The notes beneath the pieces were generated by a model. The model had not been told where the DNA came from and did no database searches. It saw only the letters and a list, made by a program, of their open reading frames with translations. 64,000 nt of DNA, taken from positions 20,518,637 to 20,582,636 of the forward strand of contig OZ020515.1 of assembly GCA_963971425.1 (NCBI GenBank), written 5' to 3'. Below, one piece after another: positions 8,029 to 62,200 of the stretch. Within the stretch, counting starts at the first letter, position 1; every line of letters begins with the position of its first letter. The position numbers and the translations under genes were made by a program. The stretch is from Bryoerythrophyllum caledonicum. Lineage: Eukaryota; Streptophyta; Bryopsida; Pottiales; Pottiaceae.

Positions 8029-8191
8029 AACACCATATTCATTATATTGGGAGTTTTCCATGATTTTGATCTAGTGCACATTCAGCTCAACTCGAGCTGA
8101 ATGTGCATAGTGGGTACATTTTAGAGCTCAAGAGCAGCATATGTGTTAAATTGGGAGGCTCACAATCTCCCAATATAATGAATATGGTGTT
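8029..8191. mobile_element. 163-bp MITE (family AACACCAT), copy 1
   Basis: Perfect 25-bp terminal inverted repeats begin AACACCATATTCATTATATT. The interior contains a hairpin with 14-bp arms (TGCACATTCAGCTC). Flanks AACT and AATT could be a decayed 4-bp target duplication. A copy of identical length in opposite orientation is at 33211-33373. Confidence 0.9.
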
Positions 8192-14544: not shown

Positions 14545-15392
14545 TTAACCCCTAAAGTCGAAAGCCCTCAAAACTGCCAAAAACCCTCAAAACTGCCCTC
14601 TTTCAATGCAAGGTGAAATTTTTTAACTTTTGACAAATTTTCGAGTATGTAACCGTAAGATCTAGTACCTAACTTGTACATGTACATGCATACCGAATCT
14701 TAGATTCAAATTCCTCTCCATTTGTGAGATCGTAATGTTCAAAGTTGAAAAAAGAGATTTTTTCCTTGTTGTAGAATGGAAAACTAATGTTTTGGGGGCC
14801 AAAAAAACCAATTTTGAAAGGAAATTTGACATGAGGCTCTTCAAATTCTTGTTCCTATGTGAGTAAGGAATATGTCCATATAACTTTTACCCTCATAGGA
14901 CCTATAAAACCTAAAGAAATGCTTAATTTTTCACATGGAGGTATGCTGAAATACAAATACAAATGCCCATTTTCAACAATTAAGAAGGCATGTAAAAAAT
15001 TATCGGATTGAAAATCTAAACGGTGAGATCATGCTTTACTACCTCTTTTACATGTAAAAAAACAAAATTCGAAAAAAAGTAAAATCTCAATGTTTGGTGA
15101 ATTTTTGAAGTTACTGCGATCTAATCGATTTTGGGCAGATTTTGAGAATAAATGAGCATATACCGCAGTTTTGGGCAGATTTCAGCATGCCCTAACAGTG
15201 TTTTCAAACTTTGACCCTGAATATCTCCTAAAGTATGAGGAATTTTGAAGCATGAACGGTGTCATTTTAAAGGTATGGAAAAACTCTACATTCTTCCAAA
15301 ATTGTAACTTCGTACGATCTAAATTTAGTAACTGAGAGCCTGACCAGAGTCAGATCGACCACATTCTGATCGATTTCGACTTTAGGGGTTAA
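14545..15392. mobile_element. 848-bp non-autonomous TIR element, copy 1
   Basis: Perfect 19-bp terminal inverted repeats TTAACCCCTAAAGTCGAAA. There is no coding capacity: the frames inside are short and unconserved. A second, inverted and rearranged copy lies at about 43536-44568 inside an intron of the methyltransferase-like gene. I could not define its target duplication. Confidence 0.8.
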
Positions 15393-16039: not shown

Positions 16040-16657
16040 TCAACTCCTGTTTTTGAGCTCCGCCAATCTGCGGCTCAAGTCGTCCTCCGAAACAGTAGAT
16101 TCCGCATCACTCAGCGGCTTGTGCGACGCAGCTTGCGGCAGACCAACAGACACCTCCAGACCGTAATCATCCGCAACCTGGTGCATGAGCGAGTTGACAT
16201 CGTCCTCGGGCGTGGACAAGCTGGTGCTCCCCGCCATGGCGGACTCCACGAACTCAGACTGCACCTCCATGTTGACGAACGTCTTCTCGAACTGGTCCAT
16301 GGTCTGCGAGATCTTCTCCATGTTGCCCACGGCGAGCGCGCTGTCGAGCGCCTTGACGATGGAGCCCATGGACTTGGTGATGGTCTGCATCTTGCTCTGC
16401 GTGCCCAGGCGCGCCACCACGGCGTCCAGCCGCGACGCCAGGCGCAGGTAGTTGAGCTGCTCGTTGTGCTTGCGGATGGCGTTCTGCGCGTAGATGCGCG
16501 CGCCGTCCATGTTGCCCTTCTCGATCGCCTTCTTCACCTTGAGCTTCTCCGCCTTCTCCTCCGCCTCGCACTTCTTGGCTTGCCGGACTAGCGTCTTCGC
16601 TGTGAACTTCAGCTGGAAAATCTGGTTCAACAACTTCTCCTGACTGCCTCCTCCCAT
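16040..16657 (-). CDS. CHMP1: ESCRT-III subunit CHMP1 (VPS46/DID2 homologue)
   Basis: Encodes 205 aa with no intron, close to the roughly 203 aa usual in plants. CHMP1 joins ESCRT-III filaments on endosomes, recruits the AAA-ATPase VPS4 through its C-terminus and takes part in sorting into multivesicular bodies. Diagnostic stretches include [49 protein letters not shown] and the C-terminal MIM1 helix [16 protein letters not shown] chose the Met of [14 protein letters not shown] because it matches the family start; an upstream in-frame Met would add 13 low-complexity residues (to 16696). Its codons are markedly G/C-ending, unlike all neighbours. No premature stop; it looks functional. It is the only clear housekeeping gene in the window. 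Confidence 0.97.
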
Positions 16658-17005
16658 GGCTCTGGCTCCTCCTCCCCCTCTCTCCTCCCCCTTCAAGGCC
16701 CTCCTTCAATGCTCCTCCTTCAATAATCCTCCTCCTCTCTCTCCTTCTCCTTCAAATCTCCTCCTCCTCCTCCTCCTCTGATCGTCCTCCTTCAATAATC
16801 CTCTTCCTCCTCTTCCTTCTTCTCCTCCTCCTCCTTCAATAATCCTGTTCCTTCTCCTCCTCCTGCTCTTCCTTCAATTATCCTCCTCCTTCGATAATCC
16901 GCGTCCACCTCCTCCTCGTCTCTCCTCCTTCGATAATTCTCCGCTCTCTTCCTCCTTAATAGTCCTCCTTCTCCTTCTCCTCCTCGCTCTCCTCCGAGTT
17001 CAATT
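16658..17005. repeat. CTC/TTC-rich simple sequence upstream of CHMP1
   Basis: About 340 bp of CTCCTCCTT and TTCAATAATCCTCC repeats. On the gene strand this is a GAGGA-rich leader, probably 5' UTR and promoter. Confidence 0.7.
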
Positions 17006-32496: not shown

Positions 32497-34604
32497 ATGA
32501 AGTCTGTGCCGATGGCGAAGAAGAAGAGCACGGACAGGGACTGGCGCGGCTGGAGAGATGAAGAGTCGGCACTTGCACTCCCTCCGTTAACCCGCGTTCT
32601 CCCGGAAATCCTAGAAGACGCGGACGAACTCAACATGCTAAAGAAGAGCCTGAAGTATATGGGGTGTGAGGGTTTGCTCGAAGTTCCCTGGGGCATCCGG
32701 GAGGAGGTCTACGTCCGGGAACTTGTAGGCACCCCAGACAAGAAGTACAAGGGGTTGAAGAGAGCCCATCCGGAAGTCTGGGGAGTCCCGAAATGGTCTC
32801 AGGCCTACGACTTCCGAGCCGGCCGCATCAAGGTGGTGGAAAGGCGGGACGAGTTTCTGGCGGAGGAATTCGGAGGACCAGCGGACCCGAAGGATGGCTA
32901 CAACCTCCAAGATCTCTGGCACCTGGATGCCTAGCTCATGCTAGGGTTTTTAAACCCTATCTTCCATACGGAAAAGCCGAGAAGGATAGTGGCAAAGTGG
33001 GCCTACGCTTTCCTCGGAGCACTCCGGGGAAAGATTGTCGTCGACTGGGGAACGTTGATGACCGAGCTGATCAACCGGCTCATGGCCAATCTCAAGAAGG
33101 TGAAGAAATCAGCCACACCTTTGGCCTCGTATGTGGTGCACCTCTATGCTCACCACCAGCAACTGACTCAGGCGGAAGTCCGGAAGTACGATGAAGTCCT
33201 TAACATCCAGAACACCATATTCATTATATTGGGAGATTGTGAGCCTCCCAATTTAACACGTATGCTGCTCTTGAGCTCTAAAATGTACCCACTATGCACA
33301 TTCAGCTCGAGTTGAGCTGAATGTGCACTAGATCAAAATCATGGAAAACTCCCAATATAATGAATATGGTGTTCCAGAGGTATGGAGGGGACGAGCCGAA
33401 GGAAGAAGAGTCCGGAGGGAAGGAGCCTGTGCCGGAAGCAGCAACCACAGGCACTCCGGAAGGCCAGAATGCTCCAAAGAGACCTCGGGGGAAGGAGCCC
33501 GAGGCGGAGAGTCCGGGCATCCGCAGCTCCTCCGCAACGACCGGAGAAGACGAGTTCGGACCCTCCGGAGGGACCAGCCGAAAGAAGAAGAAGGTTGACC
33601 GGGACAACTGCAAGGGTCAGGTCAAACTGATGGATGAGTTGACACGCAATATTGGCTGGAGAGTTGGACTCCTTAAGGAGACCAACTACCTCATCACCAC
33701 CAGCGTAGAGCAAATCTTCCGGAGTCTGGACGTCGACCGGCTGGAGGACGCCATTAACAGAGTAGAGGAACTCTGGAGCTGGGAGATTCGCACGAAGGCT
33801 CTGCACGCCCAGATCTCTTCCATGTACAAGGCCAGTACGGAGATGGAGAAAAAGGTGAAGCAATACCTTGCAGAGGCATCTCTGGCGGTGACAGCCCGGA
33901 AGCTGGCTGAGGCAAAGGCCAACACTTCCGCGGCTGCCTTGATAGAGGTCTGGGCGGCCCTGGAGTTTCCGGTTGACGTAATCAATCGGAGCAGGCTCTT
34001 CACCGAACTGGTGGAGAAGAAGGAGAAGGTGACCAGGACCAACATCATCCAGTTCCTCTTAGACCAAGCGGAGAAGATGGGTCAGACCTGGGAGCAGATG
34101 AAGCTGTTGGTGGATAACATCACCGAGGAGCTTCCGGAAGACCCAGCATCACCAGGACCGGAAGGCACCCCAACACGAACTGCGGCCCCTCCGGAACCAC
34201 CAACCAAGACCACTCCAGCTCCGGGCACCTCGACGAATCTGGAGTCTCTCGACACTCCGTCACCTTGGACACCAACGGAGGGAATCTTACCTCCCAATCC
34301 GAGTACGAGTGAGATCCTGAAGAAAATTTTGGATCTATTGTCGCCGCCCAACATGCGTCTGCCAGATCCTCGTGTAGAAGGCGACCATCCGGCTCCACCC
34401 AGGTCAGTGTCGTGGAGATTGGCGTCCAGACCAAGGAGTCCGTCCGGAAGCTATAGAGACTTGGTCCAGGAGACCAGGTCAGCTACTGCGACAGAACTAC
34501 CAGCACTTCCGATTCCGGAAGGATCACCGGAACAACCTCCACCACCACCGGACGCCAGGACTCCGGTGGCTGGTGTTACTCCTACAACTGGACCATCGGT
34601 ATAG
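32497..34604 (+). pseudogene. Plant-transposon-protein-like gene, copy 2, interrupted by a MITE
   Basis: The frame starts at 32497 (MKSVPMAKKK), meets a TAG at 32932-32934, and continues in the same frame (GFLNPIFHTEKPRRI ... YVVHLYAHHQQLTQ) to 33210, where a 163-bp MITE is inserted. Removing the MITE and one CCAG duplication rejoins Asn-Ile-Gln with Arg-Tyr-Gly in frame, and the frame then runs to 34604. The downstream part has a helical middle (QIFRSLDVDRLEDAINRVEE) and a Pro/Thr-rich C-terminus. No protease, reverse transcriptase or integrase is seen nearby, so I cannot say whether this is the extra ORF of an LTR element or another kind of transposon. It is homologous to the minus-strand copy at 24078-25962. 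Confidence 0.65.
33211..33373. mobile_element. 163-bp MITE (family AACACCAT), copy 2
   Basis: Same length and termini as the copy at 8029, in opposite orientation, flanked by the duplication CCAG (33207-33210 and 33374-33377). It shifts the frame of the host gene, since 167 added bases is not a multiple of 3. Confidence 0.95.
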
Positions 34605-34981: not shown

Positions 34982-34992
34982 CTTAGTTAGTA
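34982..34992. repeat. Target site duplication, left copy (CTTAGTTAGTA)
   Basis: Identical 11-mer to 50091-50101, abutting the inverted ends of the 15.1-kb element. Confidence 0.85.
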
Positions 34993-35006
34993 GGACGAGG
35001 CTATCG

Positions 35007-35034
35007 TGTGAGCGGTGAGCGGTGAGCAGTGAGC
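35007..35034 (+). repeat. Left terminal heptamer array (NGTGAGC x4)
   Basis: Reads TGTGAGC, GGTGAGC, GGTGAGC, AGTGAGC; inverted relative to 50043-50077, where there are five units. Such arrays could be transposase-binding sites. Confidence 0.8.
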
Positions 35035-35039
35035 TATAA

Positions 35040-35463
35040 GATTTGGATATTTAAGAGCAAAAATAGTTCAGACTTTAATGAAGATTTAAATAATCATAAA
35101 TTTTCATTTTTTAAATTATTTATAGTAAGATTTGAGACCTATAACCGTGAAACATTTATTCACAGTAACCTTTGAAAATTTGTTTTCAAGATGAATAAAA
35201 ATGGGATAAGTTAGTAAAATGAGTAAAACTGCAACTATCCTGGCAGATTTTGTGAAAGGCTATGTCTTGTCTTTTAGATTTATTTAGCGCGATGCATTGT
35301 AAGAAATTTAAGGTAGTAAAGATTATGAGGAGTAATTTGATTGATTATCTGAAAAACAGAAGAAAGGTAATACTGCAAAACTGGTAGTGGCCCTTTTAGT
35401 CTCACTACTGAATAATTAAATCAAGAGCTGCTTACAAAGGTTTCATTGTAGAAACTGTCAAAT
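35040..35463. other. Non-coding 3' flank of the transposase gene inside the element
   Basis: AT-rich, without an open frame of note; it should hold the polyadenylation region. Confidence 0.4.
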
Positions 35464-38400
35464 CTACAAGTGTAGGTGGTTCAACAATCCACTCTCTAGA
35501 ACTCGCTTCACTTCATTGAAGCTAAAACTAGCTGCGTGCATGAATGTATCGGACTCTGAATCCAAACCACAAATGATTGTAAATACATAATAGAGGTGCT
35601 TACAATTGGTCCACTGACCACGCTTTCCAATTGCTTTTGTCGCCATCTCCTTGAAACTTGGGCAGGTGCATGCAGAGAGCTGCGAAATTGTCAAATAATA
35701 CTGCTGGACCTTTGGAGGTGTGCCCGAATCCAATGAAACAATGCATCCAAGGGCAGGGGCGGGAAGCATGCATAACTTGCGCACAATTCCTTTCAAAGAT
35801 AGGGCCGACGCACAATTGTTGGCATGCTTGGTGGACGGTGCCTTCTTGTTGCACCGGATATTCTTCCCTGATCTGCGGGTGGGAAATTCGTCTGGATATG
35901 CTGGAGTCGTGTAAGTTGATAAGTCCATAAATAATGGTTGGTCCTGAAAGAGCCTTGCTGGCGACATCTCCTTCCGCTGGGATAGTCTGAAGCCCGCATT
36001 CTCCAAGGAGAGGATCTCTTTGCGAGATAAGTTAGTCCCCAACTTGACCGGCCAAACCTCTGGAACCTCACGTCTTGACATCACCCACTTTCGATGAGTG
36101 CCCTTCACGCATCTTTCAATGTCATCATTGCAGAAGAAGAATTGCATAGACTCCTTCATGTTCTTCTTGTAGTTGTCCATCATGCCAGTGTAGGTTGGAG
36201 CAATAGTGTTCTTCCCGTCTTGCACAATCCGAGCGACGCACTTCTTCTTGGTGATGGCTTGTTGAGCAAAGCACGCTTTGGCGGATGTCTTCGCAAGGCG
36301 TGCGATGTGCCATTCGGAAGGGTCGCATGCAATCTCCTCCACAGTAGTGACGTGGTGGCAATCGATTTGATAAGTAGGTCGGTGTGGTTCAAGGCTCGGC
36401 TCCTCCCAATCAGAAGGTGTAGGAGAATCAGTTGGTGGAAGGTTGTGGTCGTTGTCATTGCGTGCTGATCTGGTTTGGACGCGCGGGCTTGACATGCTAA
36501 TCTTGTCAGGCCTGTGAGACTCATATTTAGAACCAAAAGCGGTATCCGGCTTTCGTTTAAGAGAAACAAATACCTCTTCCCCTTCAAGGTGAGGAGTTCT
36601 GGTGCACAACACGTCGGCGCCAGGCATCTTCAAGAACGCTTCGGGGAGTGGTTTCGAGTTTCCAGTTCGAGACGATAACCTCTGAGCACTTCTGAGCTTG
36701 AGTTCTTCCTTTGACGGACCAGTACCAGGGCGCTCTCCTTTGAGGAATTGGTAGTATACTAAGCACTGCATGAAGCCGCGAACAAAGTCGTCCACGGTCG
36801 CCACGTACATGTCGCTCCCTCGATCACCGGATTGCTGTTTCCACTTGTTATGGATCGATTCTGCAAGGTTACAAGATGGCATTTCTGCAAGTTCGTCTTG
36901 AGAGAGATCTTGCAATTGTAACATGGTGTCAATTTAGCCTTATCAGAGTACTTATGTAATGTTTGGAGGCGAAGTAGATTATGAAAAAAAAGATAGAGGA
37001 AGGTAGAGGAATTACTAGCTGCATGAAGCCACCCCACTGCCGGCAACGAAAGTGCCAGAAGGCGAGCCAAAGCTCAAGTCGAGGAAGGCCTTGTTCAGAT
37101 GCAGCACCGGATGACATCTACCATGCTCGAATTGCAAGATACTTAGTATCGGCCTCTGTCATGGACTTGGCATTCTTGTATTGCTGGCAGAGTTCCCAGT
37201 GTTGAGCTTGGAGGTCCTGGCGAATGTCAGCCTTGGTGTGTTTTTCCACAGACTGTGTCCAGTGGAAAAGGCAAGTCCTTTCTCTATCCACCATTTTCTC
37301 ACTCGCGACTCCACTTCTGTAGATGATGCAAACAACGTTCCAATTAGCCTGGGCGCTATCGGCCATGAATCCCTTGAAATTGACTTGATGTACACCGTGG
37401 CGCGCCATGACAGCATTCAGATTCTTCCATACTACTGATTGGGCTGCAACGTCCTTCGATTGCATGTCACATACTGCGATTGTCATGACCCGACAATAAG
37501 TGGAGTCGTACACGTGGCAAGCCATGGTAGTCCAGGATCTGACACGTTTGACATGGTCAAACATTATCCATGCGTTCTCAAGGTCACCCCCAGACTGCAT
37601 TTGCTTCACCAAGTCAACTCCGCTGCCAGGCCCGACCTCGGACATCTTGAAGACGAAGACCTTGTCCATGTCTGATCCTTGTTCCGGAAACATATTCTCC
37701 TGAACAAAATTCCAGGTGCTCGAGCCCCGAAGCTTGGTAATGCTGTCCATGATTCCATACCGTCGCAGATGCCTAAAAGTAGAGACAGAATTACGAAGAT
37801 TGGGAGAGGTTAGATGCTTGCACCGATCAAAGAGTGGCAACAACTCCGGGAGCTCCAAGGTCTTCCGTTCCTCGCCTTCTCTAGCCAAAAGGAGTGGGCC
37901 AAGTACTTCCTTCGTTGTTTCAAGCACAATGGCGGAACGAGTTGCTGATGGAGTCCGTTCCACCTGTTCACCAATCAAGCTCTCTGTCTGCTCAATGAAG
38001 TCACGGTAATCACCAGTCTTGACAGGATGGTCGTGAGATCCTAAATGCACACATGCTCTCGTCATGTGTGGTGTTCCAAACACATAGTATATCTTCGCAG
38101 GGCAAACTGCAATACATGTAGGTGGGACATTACATGTTTTGCAAACTAGTGTAGAACCGGTAGGAGGACTGGATCCAACTTCAAATACTTTGACAGATAT
38201 TCCATCCCACTCAGTCTCATTCACATCGGCGGTTCTATGGTCTCGAGATAGATACACACAGTCGACATTGTCACAACGGAGGTGGCCATGACAGGAAGAG
38301 GTACGGAATGTAAGTTTCAATTCGTTTTGAATATTAGACATGATGGTGCGAGACCAAGCATGGCCATCATAACGTTTGTCCATGCCACGAAGCTGCTTGG

Positions 38401-39115
38401 CTACAGTTTGCTGGCCATGGACTCCTAACGGAGGAAATTCAAAAATAATGTCTCCATTGTATTGAGGCGGAAGAAATTCTACCTGCTCTAATTTAATTGC
38501 ATTGAAATCTATTCGGGACAAGACATTTTTTGACTTCTTACGTGCACTAAGTTTCATTAAGGATTGAACTACGCTGATTGAGTAACTTGGTGGAGTTTTT
38601 GACGGCTCGCTGGAGCGTGACGGACTGATAGGATGAGTTGACTTTTGGCGTATAGTTTGCGGAGATAGCGCCCTTTGCTCTCTGCACTTTGGTTCTAACA
38701 GTGAACCCTGGACGTCTTCACTGTCCGAGTCATCACTAAGCTCATAGATGGTCTCAAGACCTGGCTCTACTTTGACTTTGGAAAGCATTGGGGTCTTAAT
38801 GCTAATAGTGGAAGACTCTCGAGGAGTAAAAAGTTCAGTGGAAGCTGCTGAAACTGACTCAGAGACTCCATATGCCCGATACTTTCCGGGTCTAAGCAAC
38901 CAGAATGTCCCCACATCGTTTGTACTCAACAACTGACCAATAGCATGCGAGACTTGTCCCGTTGTAATGTCAAAAACCTCTTCTTCCACAAAGACAGACT
39001 CTTCACAAAATTGAAACCTCAGACCTAGGGTTGTGGAAGTGACCATGGCATGACCATCTTCACCCAACGGAAATGTAATTGGCACAGAATGCAAATCAGC
39101 ACGAATGAAGGCCAT
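35464..39115 (-). CDS. MULE transposase (WRKY-GCM1-like finger, DDE core, SWIM finger), with a premature TAG
   Basis: The first block (39115-37118, 665 aa) has an acidic/Ser-rich N-terminus, a Cys/His cluster at residues about 275-363 (CHGHLRC, CKTCNVPPTC and ACVHLGSHDHPV) like the WRKY-GCM1 zinc fingers of some MULEs, and then the transposase core: Asp in MACHVYDS (about 537), Asp in FMADSAQANWN (about 586) and CLFHWTQSVEKH. A TAG at 37118-37120 stops it, but the same frame continues (LELWLAFWHFRCRQWGG) to about 36990. A T-rich segment starting GTAATTCC then looks like an intron, and the second block (36924-35464) supplies the probable catalytic Glu in NLAESIHNKWK and a SWIM finger (CTCPSF ... 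WTNCKH). Either the stop is a lethal mutation or splicing from the adjacent GTAGAT removes it. The protein would cut and reinsert the element. Confidence 0.85.
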
Positions 39116-40720
39116 TGTAGTCTAAGTAAATTGCAACCTCACAAAGACAGAATGAAATCGATACAAAAAAAGGAGTTTAGCAGAGGCACAGAAGATTAAG
39201 TACTTGCACAAACAAAAACCTCTAACATGGACGAATGTAAACAATTGACTAGAAGTAAATTTTGGGAGTAATCCAGGAATAAAATTTCTTTAACAGAATA
39301 GCCGTAAATGAAAAAGTAAACGTTGATATTCGGTATTTTTGCAAGTCCTATTCTTGAAAGTGAATGACGGCGGATAGATGCAATTAGAGAAACTTTTAAA
39401 GAATAGACGAAGGCACAATTCACGGTGTATAATTGCACTCTGACTGCACTATATGATTGGAATTAGATTGAAAGGTTGACAACCCATCATGTTCATGAAT
39501 TAAAGTGACTGGGTATTATCAGGCATTAGAATGACGGCAAAACCCAAAATAACAATTAGTGACAAACAACTCATAAATATGTAAGCTATAAATAAAGTGT
39601 GAACAATTATTGAAGTGAATGCCGGCGGCTAACAGAGAGGAAGCTATCATATTTTTGCCAGGTTGTATGCAAATTAATATAGCAACAATGAGTTGGAAAC
39701 TTCTAAATTCAATTAAGAAGCGTCTTTCAAAGGTGTTTTGACAACCTTAAAAGAGAGGTTTTCAAATTCATTTGTACGCTTGGGTTTATGGAATTGTCAT
39801 TAGGTTGGAATGAGGAAACTACGACAAATTGTCTAGTTGTAGAAAGTGATAGGAAGAAGAAGCGTAGGAGGCAAGGCATCTTGTTTTCAAGTCGTAAGCA
39901 ATTACAGAGGGCTAGGATGGGAAGGAGAAAGGCAAATATTTCTGACATTGACATTTCTGATACCGGAAGGGTGTTGTCCTAAATCTAAGACAACGTGATA
40001 GAGATGGAGAACAACACCTCGTTCTTGGGGACAATGCTCGGCGAAGTAGTTTTTGAAATATACATGAATCACTAGCTCAAGCATTTAATACACTAGAATC
40101 ACAACTATACGATCCAAAAAAATTAGAAAAGGACCAGACAAGCAAAGAGTGTCATGACAATGCATGTAATTAAGTAATGACTAAAGGTCACCAAAATAAT
40201 GGAGATGGTAGGTGATACGATAATTTTTGAACTATTGAATTATAGTTGTTCAAAAAGTCGAGGAATGGCAATCCTCTCTGTTACATAACATTCTGTAAAT
40301 AAGTCGTTCACCTGAAAGTAAGGTGGGCGATCATTAATAATAGAATGGGAGGGTGAATGTAAGATGTTTTGGATTTGAAATTGAGCCAAGGAAGGAGGGG
40401 CAAAGATAAAGCAAATGAGGGATTTAGGCACATTACACATGGGTACTTGACTGCGGATTTAGCCACAAAGCATGAGAGCTTGACAACACATTACATCTCA
40501 TGTCGGCACAATTTATGTGAATAGATGCGGCGTGATTAACTTACCTCAATGTAAATTTTTCGACTAAATCTTATCCTCTCGATTATTTGATTCAAGATAG
40601 GTCTCCCCAGATTTGTGCTTGACAAACACTATCGACTAGACTCAGCATAGCCATCCTTTCTTCCTTCAACTTGCAGGAATACTCAAAGGTGAGAGTTTTA
40701 ATGTCATTTGAGAGTTGCAG
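39116..40720. promoter_or_regulatory. Spacer between the two element genes, probable divergent promoter region
   Basis: The two gene starts face away from each other across about 1.6 kb. It contains a decayed copy of the first exon of the right-hand gene (39788-39982). No TATA box is convincing. Confidence 0.4.
39788..39982 (+). pseudogene. Decayed duplicate of the first exon of the ParB-methyltransferase-like gene
   Basis: The frame contains DRKKKRRRQGILFSSRKQ and DISDTGRVLS, paralleling QKKKRRRHGLRFSSTKQQ and DVGDTARVLS at 40748-40910. It ends in a stop where the intact exon continues. Confidence 0.65.
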
Positions 40721-40747
40721 ATCCAGATGCCAGAGGAGTGAGAGGAG

Positions 40748-43700
40748 TTGTTATGTTTGGCAACTGCACAGAAGAAGAAACGTAGGAGGCATGGTTTGCG
40801 CTTCTCTAGTACAAAGCAACAAAAGAGGTATAGGATGAGCAAGAGAGTTGCTCCGAGGGTAGACTGTGATGTGGGGGACACTGCACGCGTGCTATCATTT
40901 GACACTGAGAATTGCAGAATCAAGGGCAGTTTAAGAACTGTTATCGAAGTGCAAGGAAGCGTGCCATCAGACCTTGTGCGGAGTGGTGGTGCTCGGAGCG
41001 GGAATCATGGAAGCAGTGACTCGGAGGGGCGAAGGCAAGGGATGAATCGAGGAGCCGAGGTGGAGGGAAACGAGATGGAAGAAGAGCAACCACTTTTAGA
41101 GTTAGGTACAAGTGAAGCGCCTTCAAGTCAATCTGAGGAGTATGATGATTTATTGAACAGTCAAAGCAGTGAAGAACCAAAGAAGAGAAAGGTAAGATCT
41201 GACTTGCTTTGCTTGGACTTTTCATGTGTGTTTAAGAAAGTGAGTTTAAGATGCAAGTCTTCTCAGGTCAAATATTAATGATTAGGAATGCTCATGGAAT
41301 GGTGGCAAGGAATTGGAAGTTATTGAGCTCGGTAGGCTTCGGGGCCGAAGCTTCATTTGGGCAACCGTTGAGCCTTGTCTAAACATATTTTTTTTAGGGA
41401 AATTGACCAATATACTCTAGGAGTACATAGTCGTTGGACCGAATAGTATATTTGAAAGTAAAAAATTTCTATCATCATGAAAGTATACGATTGTAAATTA
41501 CTTCCACTATCATTCATCCAACTCATCTCAACCTGACTGGTCAAACATTTACCAACTTTGGCTTTCTGTTGGATGTAATACTTCATTTAGTATACATTAG
41601 TATTAGAGAACAAATTAGAGTATAATACCCTCAACATGTGGGTCACATTTTGATCATGTATGGATGCCATTATCAACAACTTCAAATACATTTGGTCCTT
41701 TAGATGGTAGAATAGTTACTGCGCTTCAATGATTAGACTTCATACCAAAACTTTTGACGTACATAGTCAAATGTCGAACCCATTAATAATATTAATTGTA
41801 ATGTTAAATTCAAAAGAGAGGGACAAACTGTTTGTCAGAAATTGAATGTCCTTGGGGCTAAATTATCATAATGAAGAATAAAAGTTGATAAAAAATCAAG
41901 TCATAATCATTCAATTATGTCTGTTCAATATATTACAATTTTGATGAAAGACTTCAACTGTAATGTATCTTCTTCCATCAATACGTGTCACCAAATGTAC
42001 ATTTTCAGTGGACATTTCCAGAGATCAGATTCTAAACAAGGTCTAAGGAGTCCTGGGGAAAGCAAGTTACACAAGATATATGGTTTGGGTCTTGGGAGGA
42101 GTCAGGACTGTGTACTGTGTATGGTCTGTGAACGTGGAACCTTGCTGACGCTTGTCCTCAACTGACTTTTGTCCTCAACTGCTTGTTTTTACCGCTAGCA
42201 CAATTTTCAAAATCATCGCACTGGGAGCCAGCTTCTTCTCACGACGTGTGTAATCTCACAGCTGTAATCTCACGTCGTCGTACGTGATTCCACGATTCGC
42301 ACTCCAAGATGGGATTTTAGCCTTGTGTACAATGAGATACATCAAGTATACATTACCACTAATACATGTCTCTTAAGTGTTGAATTAATTAATTTGTAGA
42401 TTTGAAGTCTAAAATGTCTCTGCTGTCTAGATTTCTTCGCAACGATGTTCCTGTGAAGTGTAGATGATGACTATTCTGTGCACGATGTTCCTGTTCATGT
42501 ACCTTTACCTGTTCTAGATCTGGAGGTCTTGCATTGGATTTCGTCACAGAACCCAACTCTGGCGGAGTGCCGGCAGAAACGGATTCGCCGGTTCAGTCTT
42601 GGTGATTTGCCGGTTCAGTCTTGCAGGATTCGTCAGTGAAGTTTGAAGGATTCGTCACAGTATTGGTGAGAAGTTTGCTGGATTTGTTGCTGGATTCGTC
42701 GCGTATGTGGTGATCGTCGTGTGTGTGCTGGATTCGTCGTTGTTGAAACTTGTGGTTGTTGGCGTACTCTGGTTGTGTCCTGGTGCGAACGCTAGATCGA
42801 TTATGGGTCTCGTTAGGTCTTGAAGTGCGTCGTTAGGTCTCGTTAGGTTTTAAAGTGCGACGTTAGGTTCCAATAAATTTGCATATTTGTGAACTGCTCA
42901 GAGGATGATTGAGCTTTGAGCGGAGGAGGCTTCGGCGCCGAAGCCTTCTTGATGCGCAGAACGCAGTATCTCCGCCGACATCCTGGTGACAAGACCTCGA
43001 CCTCCCAGCGCCGAATTTTAGGCACCACGGGACAGTTTCCATCGTGACAGCCAGTGGCGAGACACGCAGCGGGACTCTTCGCCGCGGAATAGAGTGCCGG
43101 GACTGGCATCGAGTCACTCACCTTGACCTGCAGCGAGACTTGCACCTGGACACTTCGCAGCCAGTGCCGGAATTGTAGCAGGACACTCCACAACACGATC
43201 TCACCAACAGTGCCGACTTCTTCCGTGTAGGTCGTTCAATTTGATAATTGTGTTGTGTGCCGGTGATAGGAAGTTGACAGAAGAACGATGGAGGCCCCTC
43301 TCGGAGAGAGTTCGGCACCGAACCCTCCTGTTGTTGCGAATGTAAGTCTTCCAGTTGATTACGGTTCTGGATATGTATATCTACAGTATTTGCGCTTGGT
43401 GCGCTCGATACCTTTCGGGATCGTTCAAGCTGAATTCAAATTCTCTTGTTGGTCACAAGAGGGAGCGGAGATGACACAGGACGGAGAGCAGCTGGAGCCT
43501 TCGGCACCGAACCCTTGCATGGCGACCGAGGTAAGCCTTAACTTTGACCTCGAAATCTAGCAGAATGTGGTCGATCCGACTCTGGTCAAGCTCTCACTTA
43601 CTAAATTGAGATCTTACTTTAGAAGATATTCACGGTCAAAGTTAGCTGGTCGAGATCTTCAAAGCGTAGCTGGTCGAGATCTTCAACGCGTAGCTGGTCG

Positions 43701-46700
43701 AGATCACGTAGCTGGTCGAGCTGCATCAACGCGTCGATGGTCTGTGCATGCGAATTCTGCACGTCAATGAAGCCCATGTATGTCTTGATCTCGAAGTACT
43801 ATCATAAGTCCGACTCGGGTCAGGCTCTCAGTTACTAAATTAAGATCGTATGAAGTTCAACTTTCGGAAGGTTGTAGAGTTTTCCCATACCTTTAAAATG
43901 ACACCATTCATGCTTCAAAATTCCTCATACTTGAGGAGATATTCACGGTCAAAGTTTGAAAACACTGTTAGGGCATGCTGAAATCTGCCCAAAACTGCGG
44001 TGTATGCTCATTAATTCTCAAAATCTGCCCAAAATCAGTTAGATCGCAGTAACTTCAAAAATTCACCAAAAAATGAGATTTTACATTTTTTCGAATTTTG
44101 TTTTTCGTACATGTAAAAGGGGTAGTAAAGCATGATCTCACCGTTTGGATTTTCAATACAATAATTTTTTTCATGCCTTAGTATTTGTATTTCAGCATAC
44201 CTCCATGTGGAAAATTAAGCATTTCTTTAGGTTTTATAGTTTCTGAGATGGTAAAAATCATAGGAACAAGAATTTGAAGAGCCTCATTTCAAATTTCCTT
44301 TCAAAATTAGTTTTTTTGGCCCCCAAAACATTAGTTTTCCATTCTACGACAAGGAAAAAAAAAATTCTTCAACTTTGAACATAACGATCTCACAAATGGT
44401 GAGGAATTTGAATCTAAGATTCGGTGTGCATGTACATGTACAAGTTAGGTACTAGATCTTACGGTTACATACTCAAAAATTTGTCAAAAGATAAAGATTT
44501 TCACCTTGCATTGAAAGAGGGCAGTTTTAAGGGTTTTGGCAGTTTAGCCTTTCGACTTTAGGGGTTAATATTCTGCCTGAATTGTGCACATTGTCCATAC
44601 TATAATTATGTTTATATGGACGTAAGTGTTGTTGCTCTCTATGCTCTTTGTGCTTCTGTTCGATTGGAAATAATGTCAATTAAATTGGACTTTTCATGGA
44701 AATTATCCTGTGCTCAAGACATGTTCAATATATGGTAATTCATCAAATGTGCTTATGATTGTGACTCTCGTTTGATTCTACTGTGGAGGAATTTGCCGTT
44801 GTCCAAATCAAATAATTGAATCTTGAGTTTATAGACCCAATTTGAATATGGATTTCCTATTTCATGCCCCATGTTTAAAGTGCCGCATGTGTTAACCTTG
44901 ACTGTTATGATTTGTATTGAGACCACTCTACTTTCATGATATGTGTGTTACCTTGATTTGTTTTCTTGAAAGCTTTGGCATTATCTAGTATTGCTATGAT
45001 TTAGTGAATTCTTAAAAAATTTGGATACAGGTCTCTCATTCGGTGGATTCAGTTGCCGACTCCGACGACTGCACAACGGTGAAGTGTCCACCAAATTGCC
45101 ACGATGCTAAAGAAGGGGAGCGATTGCGGCGCAAGTTGGAGAAGCGAGACTATCACTCCGTTTTAAATAGTATGCGATCTTTGGATTCAGGGTTACGAAT
45201 CCCATTATGCAGGCTCTTACCTTTGCCACGAGTTAGACTAGTTCAAGAGGTGGATGTCCGACGCTTGGAGATTCTTTTTGAAGATTGTGATGGATATGAT
45301 GATGCAGATCGTGCTCTATACGTGTCCATGTACAACGATAAGGAGACCACTACTGACGTTGGAGACGAGCATCGGACTTCTTGGGGTCATCATTGGCATG
45401 ATGCAAATGACCGGTTTGACGCCCAGCTTGAGTCTTCAGCTTTATACGCTCATCTGAGAGGTAAGATGTTCTATGTTTGGGATTGCAATCACAGATTCTC
45501 CGCTTGGTGGCGCAAAATCAACATCGATCACTCTGAGGAGGCTCGCTGGCATTTCTCAGTCATCTGCATCGTCTTGGACCCCCGAGGCCGCATTGGACCT
45601 CTTCTGAATGCAATGAACGACGTTAACTGGTATGTCTTTGAAATTTCTATTTATTCAAATTCCATTTTTTCATTTATTTTCTTTAACCACTCTTAAATTA
45701 GGTCCACTCAAAATGATCATGTCAAGACTAGTCTCCCTGCTGGATTGACACGGATGCGATATTTTGGAGCACTTTCATTGCAGGACTTTCGTGACTTGCT
45801 GACTCCCACTGAGTACAAAACTTGTGGAAAAATCAAAAAGAGTAGGCCGACGTGGTTCCCTCTCACGGTTGATGTCTTCATCTCCTTTTTGTATCGGGGG
45901 CGTTTTCTTTTATCACATTTGAGATTTCAAGATTATTTCACTCAATATTTAATAAAGACTTCGTAGTTGATAATTGAAACTTATCCCCAGGCTGACATAT
46001 CCCGTGCTTCTGATGAGGCTGTCCGTGAGTACAATGATCGTACTCTGGAGAAGGATAGGACTGCGGAGGCCGTGTGGGGGGTCATGCAGGCTGCTTCAGA
46101 AAGAGCCATTAAAGTCATTAAGCAGAAGGACTTTCTGAAGTACTTGACTGTGGCGAATCCTAGAAATGGGGAGGATTTCTTCAATCAGGTTAGAGCATTT
46201 CAACTCTATTTCTACTTTCATGTCATTTACATATACTGTCTTTCGTGACTTTTCATATTTTATTTCATGTCATTTATCATAAATATTTTTTATGGGCAAC
46301 AGATCAATTTGCACTATAATACAAATTCCAAGCCGGAGATGACAATTGAGAAGCTTCAAAAGATTGCAACATCTATGGTGGAGCCAGAATTTAAAGCCAA
46401 ATGGCTTCGGTGGTGGAATTCAGGCACTATGCGGCGAGCCGCCTACCGCTTCCTTCTTGCCAGTTTTAAGGAGGCAGACCTTGATACTTGGCTCAACAAA
46501 GCCACATTTTGGGCTCACATAATGTGATTTCCTTGCATTCATTAGTCTTCTTCTGTAACTTCATTTAATTCCACTGCTTGATTATATATATTCATTGCAG
46601 ATCGAATACAGTGTTGTCAAGCAGTTCAATGAGATTTCTGGTGATGAATTGGGTAATATTGATTGGAGTGCATCTGGTGGCATCAAAAAGCCCTCAGATT

Positions 46701-49009
46701 TTGTGGAGTCTTGGAGAATTCTGCTTTGGGACAAAGCGTTCCAAACTTTTCTCCACCCAAATGCTACCCCTCCTTTTATGAAGGGATCCATATTTGATGA
46801 TCATCCTGGAGCTCAATTGGCAGAGAGACGTGTGTTATATCGGTATTTTTTGAACCTTAACTTATATATTTATAATTGTCTCTTTTCACTACATTGAATT
46901 TTTTGAGCTTACTAAATATTTTTCTTTTGGCAGATATATGATGCGGGAGCTCATTACTAAACATGCCATTCCATCTCAATCTCTCCCACCCTGTGTTGAA
47001 GCTTGGATCAAGCTTTCCTCCGACCTTTGCATGTATACTCCAGTGCAACAAAAGAGGTACGCAGCCAATCACCTCGAAGCTGGGTGTTGGTACCTTGATT
47101 GTTCACCAAACTATACTCCGGACGATGAGGTACACATTAGGAATAGCCTTGATGCTGCTTTTGTGTCTCCTATTGGAGCTACCGAAGTTGTCGACCTTCT
47201 TGAGGAAGACTCCATTCAACCAATTCATGTTCGTGGCGACGGTTCTTCTCAGAAGAAGAAACCTTTGACCAAAGCCCAGAAGGAGGCGATAAACAAGGTT
47301 GCACAAGTGAAGGAGGTAGGAGATGCCACTACTGTTGCGGCCTCTAGTCTTCCTACATTCTCAGTATTACCTAGCAATATCAGTGCCCCAACAAGTGACC
47401 AACATGGTATGTTACCACATTCTTCATCTCAGTTCCCAACCACTTCAAGTGTTGCATAAGCCACAGAGGAGCTCCTTGGGCAACGGAAAGTCCGCCAGCT
47501 GCCCTCTGCTTCCACCTCTGTTGCACAGATACATCCTTTGGAGGTGATGTTGGAAAATGCGTCCCTTTTTGCGGTAATGGAGACTCTTGGTAGGCCAGCA
47601 GGCCCTGATCAATTATGGGAGACGCTTCATCAATTTATTACCAAGGTATTTTTTCATATTTATTACCTATTTTAGTTCTTTAGACTATTCATCAGATTAT
47701 TCATCATTTCATCTCATTTCTTATTGTTTCATGCAGGTTGGTTCTGGTCGAACACGTCGTGTGTCTTCTCTACATTGTAAGAACACCGGTCTGGATCTCA
47801 TCATCGCCGACATTTCAGAGAATCTGCCAGTGCCTCGCATTTCAACGCCGCCTTCGACAATTCCACAATGGAATTCACGACCTGAACGGTATGTAGAGTC
47901 CATTTTTGAGTTTGGTGATGCATATTTACATGATGACGCCGCCATTCTTCTTTTCCACTGTGATGATCGTGCACTCTGCTCCGAAATTGAAGAAGTTGCG
48001 GAGCAATATAGCTTCCACCTTTGTAAAGATTGGTGGGGAATTAATGATATTGCCTTGGCATCTCCAAAGTTCCCCTCGACCACGGTACGATATATTTTCC
48101 AATTCCATTCTCTCTTTTGGAATTTTTTTTATCATTTGTGATTTTTAATGGATTGGGTCTATTGCAGTCGCATCGCTTTTGGATCCAGCTCTTTGTCCGT
48201 GATGAACCCATTCAATCACAGTTCTCTATCATAGAGAATCGTGAGCTTTCGGATGTGGGTCTCGAAGTTGAGCAGACTGACACTTTTTTCAATCTCACCA
48301 CCGTCAAGAACCAGCTCATGCGAGGGAGTTTGCCCTGGCGTGGTGCACGGGAAAAAGATCCCCTTTTCATGCAAGTCTTGATTGAGTCCTTCACAAAACC
48401 TGGTGACATCGTGTTGGATTGGAAGGCCTCCACTGGTACCTTTCATGAACTCTTTATTTATTTTTGCAATTTGATTTCTTGTTAACCATTATCATATGAT
48501 TATTTATATGTTTTCTAATTCTTGCAGGTGCCTGTATTCGTGCCTGCCAAGCCACTGGTAGGCACATTGTTGCATTTGAAGATGATCTGGATATCTTCAC
48601 TACAATCCTCTTGCCTTTGGTTGCTAAGCCTTCTCCTCCTCCGGCGGTTGCCAGGAAGGCTGTCAGGAAGGCTAGCCAGCCTCTTTTAGAGGAGCGCCCA
48701 TCAAAGAAGCCAAAACGCAATCGATTTGCCTGTGCGTAAGTTTTTTTTTGTTTATCCATTCTAAAATATTTGTAATCCATATACTCTACTTGTTAGCGGA
48801 TCACTAACTATATGTTATGCAGAGCTTTTTGTTCGAGCCTTCCAGAGGCTCTCACGCTTCCAAGCTATGCCGAGGATATGGCTATTGCACATGCACACAC
48901 TCCTTCTCCAGCTCCTTCTCCTCCCCGCCGCGCATTCCATTCCAGTGTGGAACAATTTATGGATGTTGAGGCTTCGGAAGGGGATGTTAGTGAGGGATAT
49001 AGTAGTTAG
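40748..49009 (+). CDS. ParB-like / N6-N4 DNA methyltransferase-like fusion protein, 12 exons
   Basis: Exons inferred from GT-AG borders, all phase-compatible: to 41191; 45031-45629; 45702-45867; 45991-46188; 46303-46523; 46612-46842; 46934-47406; 47461-47645; 47737-48084; 48168-48435; 48528-48735; 48823-49009. The open stretch of exon 1 starts at 40748 without an ATG; the first in-frame Met is at 40835, giving about 1,146 aa, unless an upstream exon supplies the start. Exon 1 has a nuclear-localisation-like KKKRRR. Residues about 176-310 resemble ParB/sulfiredoxin-like domains (IPLCRLLPLPRVRLVQEVDV ... FYVWDCNHRFSAWW). A helical middle follows. Residues about 811-1050 have the permuted order of beta-class amino-methyltransferases: motif IV place LDLIIADISENL (D-I-S-E instead of D-P-P-Y), a strand ILLFHCDDRAL, then motif X/I place FTKPGDIVLDWKASTGA and HIVAFEDD. 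It ends in a basic tail (PSKKPKRNRF). Domain calls are from motif recognition, not a search. Confidence 0.7.
43536..44568. mobile_element. TIR element copy 2 (inverted, rearranged)
   Basis: The right end TTTCGACTTTAGGGGTTAA (44550-44568) is perfect; the left end near 43536 is diverged. The interior matches the 14.5-15.4 kb element in reverse. A duplicated segment (43566-43800) contains a GCTGGTCGAGATC minisatellite of about 24 bp. Confidence 0.75.
43655..43725 (+). repeat. GCTGGTCGAGATC short tandem array
   Basis: AGCTGGTCGAGATCTTCAA and close variants recur about every 24 bp, four times, within the rearranged TIR element. Confidence 0.7.
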
Positions 49010-50042
49010 GAAGGGTCTTCACTTGTAGCCCGTGATTTGACTAGTATTTGTGTTTTCAGTGTCATTGACTTGTGAGTCCGACATGTATATTTTTTATGTG
49101 CAATTTGGCTAACAATCATTACATGTGTTTCTATATATTTATTTTATATATTATCTATTTTGTATATGGCCTACTACTATTCATAGTTTTATTTGTGGGC
49201 CATAAATAGTGACTAATGTATTAAATATAATAAAGTAAATAAATTGGTAGAATTTATGAGAATTTATCCTTAGTTAGTCAATTAGATGTGTGTATATGAT
49301 TAGCAAAGATATTTCACTCAAATTTGAATTTCTAGTTTAGCAAGGATTGTATTTATCAAAGTCATTTTGTATTAGTGGGTAACGGTGACTTATCTAGAGA
49401 AATGATATGGATGGAAGTTGTACTGGTTATCACTAACCAGTATTAAAGCTTGAGGTTTCTCATTGCAAAAAACATGTTTTTAAATAATTGAAAATAAAAA
49501 TAAAATAGAAATATAGACAAAGAAGGAGAAGAAAAAGAAAAAGAAGATAAAATTTTATACAAGAAAAAATAGAAGAAGAAAAAAAGGTAAAAACATTATT
49601 AAAAATAAAAAAAGAAAAAGAAAATATAAAAGAATAAAAGAAGAAAATGAAGAAGAGAAATAATGGAAAAGAAGAAAAAGAAGAGAATAAATTTAAAAGA
49701 AAATGATAAGAAAATAATGGAAAGAGAAAAAGAAAAAGAAAAGAGAATGAAGAAAAAAACAAAGAAGAAGAAAAAGAAGATGTATGGAGATGAAGAACAA
49801 CAACAATATAAAACAAAATCAAATAAAATCAAATCCTCCTACCGTTGTGTTTGCTCTTTTTTTCTCAAAATTTCAATACAACAGATATAATGTCAAAATG
49901 CCCCACTCACTTTAAACAAATCCCACGGTTATAGAACCTCTAATTACTAAAAAAAACCATCCAACCTCTGATAATCCACGGTAATAAATCCCTAGTATCT
50001 AAATTTTTGGAACTTTCATCTCGTCGCCGCTTAAAATTCTCT
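49010..50042. other. 3' flank of the methyltransferase-like gene with a purine-rich tract
   Basis: From 49490 to 49790 the plus strand is almost pure A/G (AAGAAGAAAAAG), which explains the long frames there. No gene seen. Confidence 0.5.
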
Positions 50043-50077
50043 GCTCACCGCTCACAGCTCACCGCTCACAGCTCACA
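50043..50077 (-). repeat. Right terminal heptamer array (NGTGAGC x5)
   Basis: On the complement: TGTGAGC, TGTGAGC, GGTGAGC, TGTGAGC, GGTGAGC. It mirrors the left array at 35007-35034. Confidence 0.8.
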
Positions 50078-50090
50078 TAATAGCATTCCC

Positions 50091-50101
50091 CTTAGTTAGT
50101 A
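50091..50101. repeat. Target site duplication, right copy (CTTAGTTAGTA)
   Basis: Exact 11-bp match to 34982-34992. Confidence 0.85.
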
Positions 50102-53720: not shown

Positions 53721-53727
53721 AGCTACT

Positions 53728-54420
53728 AACACCATATTCGTTATATTGGGAAATTTCCATGACTATGGAGAAATATGGTTGTTGAAGTATCAATAAATAT
53801 AGACATTTGAAGGTGCAAAGCATAAAGACAATGTATCAAGAATACTGTATTTCATACCATGGATGGACCAAAATAGCTGATTGTCCAAAAAAGTGGTAAC
53901 GGTAAAGGAAGCATATACTATTAATCCAAGCTTTATTCAAAACTTCATGAAAAAAAATCACACACAACACTCATTTACCTCGATGCAAAACACAATCGCC
54001 CTATTACTAATCAAACAGTCTAGGGAGTCCCTCCATAAGCCTCTATACGCGTCTCCAAAAAAACCCTCTGACGTTGCCGAGTCCATATTGCGTCATTCTC
54101 TTGCATTAATGGACTCTCAAGAAGACGCTGCAAACCCCGCCTACGCACCTCGTCCGTGTTTGATTTGGGCAGCGAGTGACGGCGGGTGGGAGCGGAAGGA
54201 GAGCATTTGATTCCAGCAGCATTTCTTGAGAGAATACGGAGGCGAAGACATTTTCCAGATGGTTCCTCCACAATAGGCGCCACAAACAATCCAAACAAAT
54301 ACACTTTAGGTCGAATACACCTACACGACACACATGAAAACTGTATCATCAAGATCCATCCTAGTGCACTTTAGCTCGAATGGAGCTAAAATGCAGAAGA
54401 GGAAATTCACAGAGCACATT
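53728..54420. mobile_element. Longer relative of the AACACCAT MITE (one end recognised)
   Basis: The left end AACACCATATTCGTTATATT, then GGGAAATTTCCATGAC, matches the MITE. About 620 bp later CTAGTGCACTTTAGCTCGAA and a hairpin match the MITE interior. The right terminus was not found. It may be a larger ancestor of, or an insertion into, this family. Confidence 0.45.
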
Positions 54421-59035: not shown

Positions 59036-59210
59036 CTAAACACCTGAATTAATTGTCAGTTCTCCATTTTTTAATTCAATGATGTTCCTAAATGATAATA
59101 GGCTTTAACATCTCACTCTAGTATGGTCGTTGTAGGTCCGTACAATAGGAAGGTCATTTGCGTCGCTGGTAGAGGAAGAAAACTTGGGGGAGTTTTTTTA
59201 AGATGTTAAC

Positions 59211-62200
59211 ATGGCGAGCTTTGGCGTGAAGAGGGAGTCACTACTGAACACAAAGTCGGGCTCAAAGAGAGAGCCGGTCGTGAAGAGGGAGTTTGGGCAT
59301 ACGCAACGTCTTTCCTCTCAGTCGATGGCTATAGACAATCCGGCTTGGGTGAAGCTGAAGATGGGGGAGGTGCAACAGGTGAGTGCCCTTGTTACGATGG
59401 AGGTAGAGTCAACAAAAAAGAGGCTGGTCACAACCAAGGATGATCAGGCGGACCTCATGAAACAAGTAATGTCCCAAGGGCAGCTTCTAGAGGCAATGCA
59501 GCGAACATGTGAAGGCAAACGGTCAGAGTTGGTGGATTGCAATGACGAGGCGAAGCAAAAGGAAGCGCAAATGCAAAGTGCCTTCTTCGAAGAGGTATTG
59601 ATGCAAGCATCTCTCAAGCACAAGTTCCTAAAGGCTGATTACGAGGCGTTGACTGACTTGCATTCGCGCCTGCTTTTGAAAGGAACCATGCTTGGTAAAC
59701 AGTTGGATGACCTTGCTAAGGAGATTGCGATGCTACGTTCGGGATCTCCAGGACTAGCTCTCTATTCGCATCCAATGGTATACCGTGAGGTGACGGAGGA
59801 GGACGACGAGAGCACAACCAAGTACCGCACGTGTGTTCTTTGCGAATTACCATTTCCATACAACGATGTGCTCCTCTGCAGTTGCAAACATCCGTACCAC
59901 CCTTGGTGTGCGCGGGTGTGGTTCACTAAGAATTTCACGTGTGTCTTCCCGGGGTGTGGAGAGGTTCATCCTGAGTGGTACGTCAGTAATGGATTTGGAG
60001 AGCTTCCTGTCCAACTGCAGGAGCGCGCCGTCTTCCTTGATTGTAAGGTGGAGAGGGTGCTCGCTATTTCCTCGAGGACACTAAATGCCAAGAAAGCCAG
60101 TCCAGAAGTTGGTAAGTTGAAATTCTTAAAGATTCTTCTTTCAATTTGTGCTTTGTATACTACTATACAGTTTAAATTAAGTTGCTTCACGATTGAGTGT
60201 CATGCTATTCAAAGCTAAGAATTGTTCACACACTTAACTTTACGCTTGCACGGAGCAAATTGCAATAGTGTACCCCGATTTAGTATTCTAGCTAGTGATA
60301 TACTAGGGTTCAAGGGTAGACTACTCACGTCATATATCGCTTAGTGTATCATAACAGTGTTTGGAGTACTAGAATGCACTTGGGTGTCTGTCATCGTTTA
60401 TTACATTGTGAGTCTAGCATGTTCTGTTGTCCTACTAGCTGGAGTATGATAGTCTATGCGCAAGCATTTGGCTCACATCTCAAGCTTGAAAGACTAGTTG
60501 TCGACATTGAATACTATGTATAATATTATATATACCATGTCATGGTATCTGCGTCCAATAATACCTTAATACTAGTGTCGTAGTCCTAAGTAGATTTCAC
60601 CGTGGTGACAACTTCCTTGTATTCAAGGGAGAATATTGTACTTATGTTATGTAGAGATACCGTTTTGTGCTTCATATTTTTCACTTATGTGTACAATTGT
60701 ATACTGGCATGCACTGTATGCTAATGGGGTACTTCTTTACTTGTACATTGCCCTCTTCTCGTCCCTATGTCTTGCGGTACTTCGTATTACTTCTATGCGT
60801 GTTAGTATGTTAGGACACATGTTTGCGGTATACTAGTTCTTGATACTTGATAGTACCATCTCACATAGTACATACTAAGTATTTAGTGCATGTGCAATGT
60901 TAGTAGCCTAGTACTAGTCTACCATGACTACTATCATTCGCACATTTAGTTTCTACTCTGTATACTCTACTAAATGACTTGTTTCTAGGTATAGTAGTAT
61001 ATGATACTTGATAGTGTCATCTCACATAGTATACAGTAAGTATCTTGAGCTTTACAATGCTAATATCTTGACATCCTTGAGTACTATCATTTGCACATTT
61101 GCTTTCTACTCTATATACTCTATTGAAGGGACTATTTGTTGACTTTGACTTGGATCCTGCAAGGTTCTTCAGAACCTCAAGCATCTCCGATGTCGGCCAT
61201 GCCGGACAATGGAAGCGTCGACCAGAGCAGTCATTGTAAGGTTGCGGCCTCGGTGATTGAGCTGTCTTTGGACCTTTTTCGCGAGGATAAGAGTTCAGCT
61301 GAGAATGGAGACGTTCAGCGGGGATCTGTACCACAAGAGGAGGACGACTTGCGCTTTAATGACCAATGTAAGGTCATCGACAATCATGGTCTGCCATTCC
61401 ACTCACCGCAGAGGATGTGTGGTAGTAACATTCGAGGGAACTTGAATATAAACGATACCTGCAGCACACCCAAGAGAGTTCTTGCCAATGGGCACGGGAG
61501 TGGTGATTTTAATGCACCTAGGATAGCTCTGCAGGACAGTCTTGAATCTGACCCGTCCCGCCCAATACGCCAGGGTTCCCCTCCTAGTAAAAGTGACTTG
61601 TTATCCAAGGACGACGCAGCAAACGAGGCTAAATCGCTGTCACAGGTAGAGGATCTCATTGTGAGCCCCAAGGTTGCCACATTCTGCGACGCGCCTGCAC
61701 TGACCCCCGACACGTCAAAATCCTGGGCCACGAAGGGTGGTGCTTCATTTTTCACGCTAAAGGTGTCCCCAAAGAAGTCGGAAAAATCGAAAGTCGCGCT
61801 GGCGGCAAGTGCCGCGAAGATACTAGAGTTACCTGGAGAACACGATGTTGTCAAAGAAATAATTTCAGGCCAACCACTCTTGACTTCAAGAGGCAAAGCA
61901 AGTGCATCATCGGCCCCCCTATCGCGCGTTCCACGTAAAGGCAAGACAACGGCCGATAACGTCCTTGTATGTCCTGATGATGCCCATGAGCCTTCAAAAA
62001 AAGGAGCATTGCAACGATCCGCTGAAAGAAAGCTTATGGACAAAGGTACGCTTGTGGATGTATCAATCACGATACGCGAAGTGTGTGTGTTAATGCGCAT
62101 GGTGCTTGTGTTAATGCGCGTGACACTGGGCAGCCTATGCTTGCTTTCATACTTTGTTTATTTGCTTTTTAGGAGATGCTCTACCCAATGCCGACTTTGG

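Follow-up and report, generated by a model that had tools for sequence, protein, structure and literature searches.

Introduction

DNA-modification genes are already known from mobile elements of eukaryotes, and ParB–methylase fusions are known from prokaryotes. The locus described here is a 64,000-nucleotide stretch of the genome of the moss Bryoerythrophyllum caledonicum (GenBank assembly GCA_963971425.1, contig OZ020515.1, positions 20,518,637–20,582,636 of the forward strand; hereafter the window). It contains a transposon best explained as resembling the Mutator-like elements (MULEs), and wholly within this transposon lies a predicted multi-exon plus-strand gene, hereafter the cargo gene, whose product has a ParB/sulfiredoxin (Srx) fold followed by a methyltransferase fold.

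The closest described systems include the following four. VANC, encoded by the VANDAL MULEs of Arabidopsis, binds short motifs in non-coding regions and thereby reduces the methylation of elements of its own family, according to the available text of two articles (PMC5735166; PMC10398659). The cargo gene resembles VANC in being the second gene of a plant element of MULE or MULE-like type; this likeness is one of description and not of sequence comparison, and the same text mentions neither a ParB nor a methyltransferase fold for VANC. Prokaryotic ParB–methylase fusions such as Bce_0392 also combine a ParB/Srx domain with an adenine methylase in a single polypeptide (PMC5512222), whereas the cargo gene is eukaryotic, contains introns, is carried by a DNA transposon, and encodes a protein whose middle region is long and whose catalytic motifs are altered. 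The TET/JBP genes of fungal DNA transposons likewise place a protein of the DNA-modification type on a eukaryotic DNA transposon, as the sections drawn upon report (PMC12730594), but the protein is a dioxygenase and has no methyltransferase fold, and the term "ParB" is absent from the main text of that article. Mobile-element methyltransferases, including the adenine type, are represented by the DNMT genes of dinoflagellate and charophyte retrotransposons and by Dam-like genes in DIRS elements; these are retrotransposons with C5 or Dam-type enzymes, and a ParB domain is not mentioned in the part of the article covering them (PMC5890265). A ParB–methyltransferase cargo on a eukaryotic transposon was not found among the listed titles and abstract openings from searches of the open PMC library.

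Results

Boundaries and Transposase-like Gene of the Element

The ends of the element are formed by terminal inverted repeats (TIRs) at 34993–35034 (plus strand, containing GTGAGCG units) and 50043–50090 (minus strand), within which 35 nt at 35000–35034 pair with 50050–50084 at 89% identity. The TIRs are flanked by identical 11-bp copies of CTTAGTTAGTA at 34982–34992 and 50091–50101, the target-site duplication (TSD); thus, the element extends over 34993–50090 (15,098 bp, ~15.1 kb). The genome (437,360,962 bases in 894 contigs) was searched for copies, and two further complete ones were read, namely, c15 (contig C15; L018 and L043) and c8 (contig C8; L027 and L042). Copy c15 starts and ends at the bases corresponding to those of the window copy and has the TSD TGTTTATTTC, and c8 agrees with both at the right end, differs at the left end, which is diverged yet still related, and has the TSD ATCTGGAAAT. 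The TSDs of the three copies (11, 10, and 10 bp, respectively, all outside the TIRs) are within the MULE range of 8–11 bp, and three insertions with three different duplications of 10–11 bp point to movement of the whole element together.

A transposase-like protein is encoded by the minus-strand frames 37118–39121 and 35464–36933, from which exon A (37016–39121, with an in-frame TAG at 37118–37120 in the window copy) and exon B (35464–36903, with a CxC...CxH SWIM-like cluster and the motif NLAES) were modelled, the inner end of each being approximate. D, D, CxxH, and E motifs and the SWIM-like end were recognised by eye, and we take them to be those of a transposase; they are retained in c8, where the alignment ends were inspected. 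The corresponding stretches of c8 are free of stops and show 59.0% (exon A) and 62.8% amino acid identity to the window copy, and those of c15 contain one stop. No Pfam MULE model matched these frames, and assignment to the MULEs therefore rests on TSD length, the TIRs, and the recognised motifs; a transposase search of IMG/VR gave no match. MULEs are described as having TSDs of 8–11 bp as well as SWIM fingers (PMC6446971). The best explanation is that the element is a MULE-like DNA transposon with dozens of copies in the host genome.

Structure of the Cargo Gene

A reading made from the sequence alone had proposed a 12-exon gene starting at 40748, with consistent phases. The location within the element and the multi-exon character were upheld, but the model now comprises 11 exons, namely, 40727–41191 (exon 1) and ten between 45031 and 49009. 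The start was moved to an ATG at 40727, in a frame interrupted in the window copy by a TGA at 40739–40741. Exon 1 encodes a Lys/Arg-rich stretch and is 465 bp long in nine of ten aligned copies; it is open with a GT donor in six of the ten, five of which begin with MPEE. Intron 1 (41192–45030) contains palindromes and repeat arrays and is followed by exon 2 (45031–45629), exon 3 (45702–45867), exon 4 (45991–46188), exon 5 (46303–46518), exon 6 (46601–46842), exon 7 (46934–47645), exon 8 (47737–48084), exon 9 (48168–48435), exon 10 (48528–48735), and exon 11 (48823–49009), which ends with a stop codon. As for the phases in the window copy, nine of the ten junctions first modelled over 45031–49009 were consistent, and the remaining one was not because the GT donor that should follow 46518 is lost. 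Exons 2–11 are in phase when 47407–47466 is read as coding and exon 5 ends at the donor of the other copies. An intron at 47407–47466, on which the 12-exon count depended, was rejected because 26 of 30 copies lack its assumed acceptor and the stretch is coding in other copies, which makes exon 7 continuous; an alternative first exon at 43288–43530 was also rejected, having one in-frame stop in each of c8 and c15.

The cargo gene of the window copy is broken by the stops at 40739–40741 and 47457–47459 (TAA, exon 7) and by the lost donor, whereas all 11 exons are open in c8 and c15. The anatomy of the element and the gene set out here is, in our judgement, very probably correct. Upstream of exon 1, a plus-strand frame at 39707–39982 has 53% identity to it over 49 amino acids; c15 lacks this frame and c8 has a broken version of it, so that it may have arisen by local duplication of that exon.

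Domains of the Predicted Protein

The open copies predict a protein of ~1200 amino acids in which a basic N-terminal region and a ParB/Srx-fold domain are followed by a middle region of ~510 amino acids, for which no family match exceeded the cut-off, and then by the permuted fold of a DNA amino-methyltransferase. Tests for the two folds gave a match in each case, in agreement with the sequence-only reading, which had placed WDCNHR in a ParB-like context followed by a permuted amino-methyltransferase layout.

The product of exon 2 matched the ParB/Srx N-domain fold. In WDCNHR of the window copy, Cys is a derived residue, since Gly occupies this position in 17/17 database homologues and in 28/30 genome copies; the G-x-x-R motif, presumably a nucleotide-site motif in this superfamily, is present in the family (full GNHR in 14/17 homologues, DGNHR in 26/30 genome copies). 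In Pfam searches with 18 family members (E ≤ 5), no ParB family was matched, and the ParB-like family phrog_1033 gave a weak match in 5 of the 18 (best E = 0.056). The end of exon 2 recurs among the relatives, whose identity is as low as 32%; 11/17 database homologues end directly after the last Trp of this exon, as would be expected if their donor reads GTAA. These relatives were obtained with exon-sized queries (17 and 11 relatives), whereas a protein search with the full-length spliced product yielded 7095 candidates and none at E ≤ 0.001. Sequence searches of the PDB gave weak matches at most, and scans of IMG/VR and of GTDB genome contigs with the cargo confirmed no relative; a prokaryotic or viral source was therefore not found at that sensitivity.

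The methyltransferase fold occupies 47737–48735 and has the permuted order, running from motif IV to motif I. Exon 8 contains the motif IV region (ADISEN in the window copy, mostly ADIPEN in the family), exon 9 continues the fold to motif I (VLDWKASTG), and exon 10 encodes the end of the motif I region and a basic tail. Motif IV of beta-class DNA amino-methyltransferases ends in an aromatic, base-stacking residue, and Tyr was found there in three phage relatives (three sampled of 328 matching records). The cargo family departs from the pattern (D/N/S)-x-P-(Y/F/W): the aromatic position is Glu in 7/7 family rows and in 29/30 copies, with Lys in the remaining copy, and Glu-Asn is invariant in a six-row exon alignment. 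Motif I likewise departs from GxG, with a WKASTG-type motif where the phage relatives have GSG; the first Gly is replaced by Ser in 30/30 copies, and the second is retained in 28/30. The methyltransferase half thus appears, from these motifs, to have lost the usual active site. The earlier suggestion that the protein marks element DNA is disfavoured, since the motif IV Glu and the altered motif I occur in nearly all rows, and a role in reading or protecting that DNA is conceivable.

Copy Number and Selection

The cargo DNA at 45031–49009 is present at full length at least 36 times, including the window copy, the other 35 being 95–98% identical to it, and three partial copies were also found; the figure of 36 is a lower bound because 38 of 117 candidates were scored. 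Thirty of the full-length copies, among them that of the window, were aligned as loci. From 45031 onward, 11 of the 30 are open (no stop, no change of exon length, all GT/AG splice sites present), and the other 19, including the window copy, contain a stop, an exon of altered length, or a missing splice site.

The cargo gene has been held under purifying selection by the element lineage, as shown between the main intact groups. The ratio of nonsynonymous to synonymous differences per site (pN/pS) was 0.24–0.27 between L018 and nine open copies of another group and 0.28–0.32 between L019 and the same nine copies, pS being near the intron divergence in both comparisons. Between L018 and L027, differences were found at 36/710 synonymous and 30/2431 nonsynonymous sites (Fisher p = 1.2 × 10−8). 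Several results weigh on the other side. The independent comparisons are few, since the nine open partners of L018 and L019 are nearly identical to one another, and L018 versus L019 gave a pN/pS of 0.56. With 47407–47466 excluded, pN/pS was 0.50 for the complete set of 435 pairs among the 30 open and broken copies and 0.69 in the 102 pairs with divergence above 3%. On average, pairs of copies differed by 0.025 at the first, 0.020 at the second, and 0.029 at the third codon position and by 0.034 in introns.

Proposed Exchange of the Cargo between Subfamilies

DNA identity between the window copy and c8 was 67% in the transposase stretches and 96.6% in the cargo half. According to the comparison of L018 and L027, the cargo genes of c15 and c8, intron divergence (0.047) is close to synonymous divergence (0.051); therefore, selection on the protein does not account for the contrast between cargo and transposase. 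The simplest reading is that recombination or gene conversion has moved the cargo between subfamilies. Since the transposases of the subfamilies differ strongly and the cargo is shared, the latter appears to behave like an exchangeable module.

Probable Methylation Footprint and Intron 1 Motifs

In copies L012–L041, private changes of the C-to-T type were found at 82/254 CG sites (0.32), 84/279 CHG sites (0.30), and 183/1211 CHH sites (0.15), and private transitions at 70/2231 A/T sites (0.03). The excess at CG and CHG sites suggests that the host probably methylates the element copies. It should be noted, as a point against this, that CHG transversions are also raised (58 in 279), which deamination does not explain.

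Intron 1 contains four sites of the palindrome TTCGGNNCCGAA, at 41338–41349, 42931–42942 (the core of a 20-bp palindrome at 42927–42946), 43311–43322, and 43500–43511. The four occurrences in 64 kb compare with 0.05 expected and with at most two in each of 100 shuffles, for a pattern picked after it had been sighted. Same-strand (plus) motif arrays at 42626–43720 comprise four units each of GGATTCGTC, CGTTAGGT, and TAGCTGGTCGAG, the first two having one extra match each elsewhere in the window. All four palindrome cores are complete in c8, c15, L008, L010, and L011 and damaged in L005, L006, L007, and L009. Two results speak against a role in binding: the palindromes are no better conserved than their surroundings (26/40 invariant columns in the cores versus 1955/2608, ten copies), and three of the 32 bins of the window exceed the bin 42001–44000 in repeat number. 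The palindromes were accordingly rejected as proven binding sites because their conservation is no higher than background, and together with the arrays they are treated as a lead, that is, as candidate binding sites. In the available text on VANC21, its binding is placed at non-coding sites, the same kind of place as the intron 1 motifs (PMC5735166).

Intron 1 also includes a segment, 43550–44568, with an inverted relative at 14545–15379 (identity of 87% across 811 bp and of 90% across a further 68 bp). The latter lies downstream of a Snf7/CHMP1-like gene (16040–16705, minus strand; Pfam Snf7, E = 7.1 × 10−16), and a captured or inserted segment is possible.

Other Features of the Window

Regions 1277–2164, 8459–9178, and 11174–12694 (minus strand) include two relatives, 43% over 209 amino acids, of a different repeat protein family; a Ulp1-type peptidase frame (Pfam Peptidase_C48, E = 1.5 × 10−5) is located close to one of the two, reminiscent of Ulp1-carrying transposons. 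A 163-bp sequence with inverted ends occurs at 8029–8191 and 33211–33373 (99.4% identical), with a third partial copy at 53725–53762, and resembles a miniature inverted-repeat transposable element. A plus-strand frame at 59202–60218 has a RING-like zinc-finger match (Pfam zf-RING_16, E = 2.8 × 10−5, below the cut-off).

Discussion

By analogy with VANC, the cargo gene may encode a DNA-binding pseudoenzyme that counters silencing of the element, a reading we favour tentatively and rate somewhat short of probable. The methyltransferase half would no longer methylate and would grip DNA or S-adenosylmethionine (SAM); the protein would bind element DNA, possibly via the arrays of motifs that intron 1 of its gene contains, and would relieve host cytosine methylation or shield the element, in a way similar to VANC in VANDAL elements. 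METTL14 and MTA9 are degenerate MT-A70 partners that have lost the catalytic motif, are conserved, and bind nucleic acid; they belong to a different family, and their active partners are known, whereas none is known for the cargo protein. Among the points against this pseudoenzyme, a DNA-binding domain was not identified in the ~510-aa middle region, and the motif IV Glu alone is not proof of inactivity. A more elaborate account, in which a ParB–methylase fusion captured from a prokaryote or virus became a non-methylating clamp that loads at the intron 1 palindromes and arrays, spreads along the element, blocks host cytosine methylation, and has passed as a module between transposon subfamilies, is considered quite improbable.

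The divergent pairing of the cargo with the transposase-like gene in all three full copies would suit an accessory of transposition, whose ParB-like half binds or nicks near the ends and whose methyltransferase fold provides DNA contacts, aiding the transposase and having no part in anti-silencing. Non-specific nicking is reported for Bce_0392 in the part of the source available (PMC5512222), but a strict partner should co-diverge with its transposase, and the cargo identity of 96.6% against 67% for the transposase speaks against this reading, which we consider rather unlikely. The damage in 19 of 30 copies, including that of the window, would be expected of a decaying passenger, or the gene could have been captured for a host-directed effect unrelated to DNA; additional open reading frames of MULEs are often assumed to be host-derived, according to the consulted part of PMC6446971. 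Findings that speak against this account are the 11 open copies, the low pN/pS (well under 1) in comparisons between the main intact groups, and the existence of database relatives with as little as 32% identity, and we regard it as improbable. The conservation of the altered motifs (Glu-Asn and the second Gly of motif I among them) could also mean that the protein is a DNA-modifying enzyme whose active site is unusual but functional, in which the Glu motif would serve another methylation target or other SAM-dependent chemistry; the aromatic end of motif IV in the beta class, Tyr in the sampled phage relatives, and Ser in place of the first motif I Gly in every copy argue otherwise, and this enzyme is given little credence.

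For the putative anti-silencing pseudoenzyme and its rivals alike, the many intact and broken copies within one genome make the role of the cargo directly testable. Transposons with DNA-modification or anti-silencing proteins show the fight of genome parasites against epigenetic defence, and a conserved pseudo-methylase with a ParB fold on a plant transposon would be a new kind of anti-silencing or DNA-modification protein.

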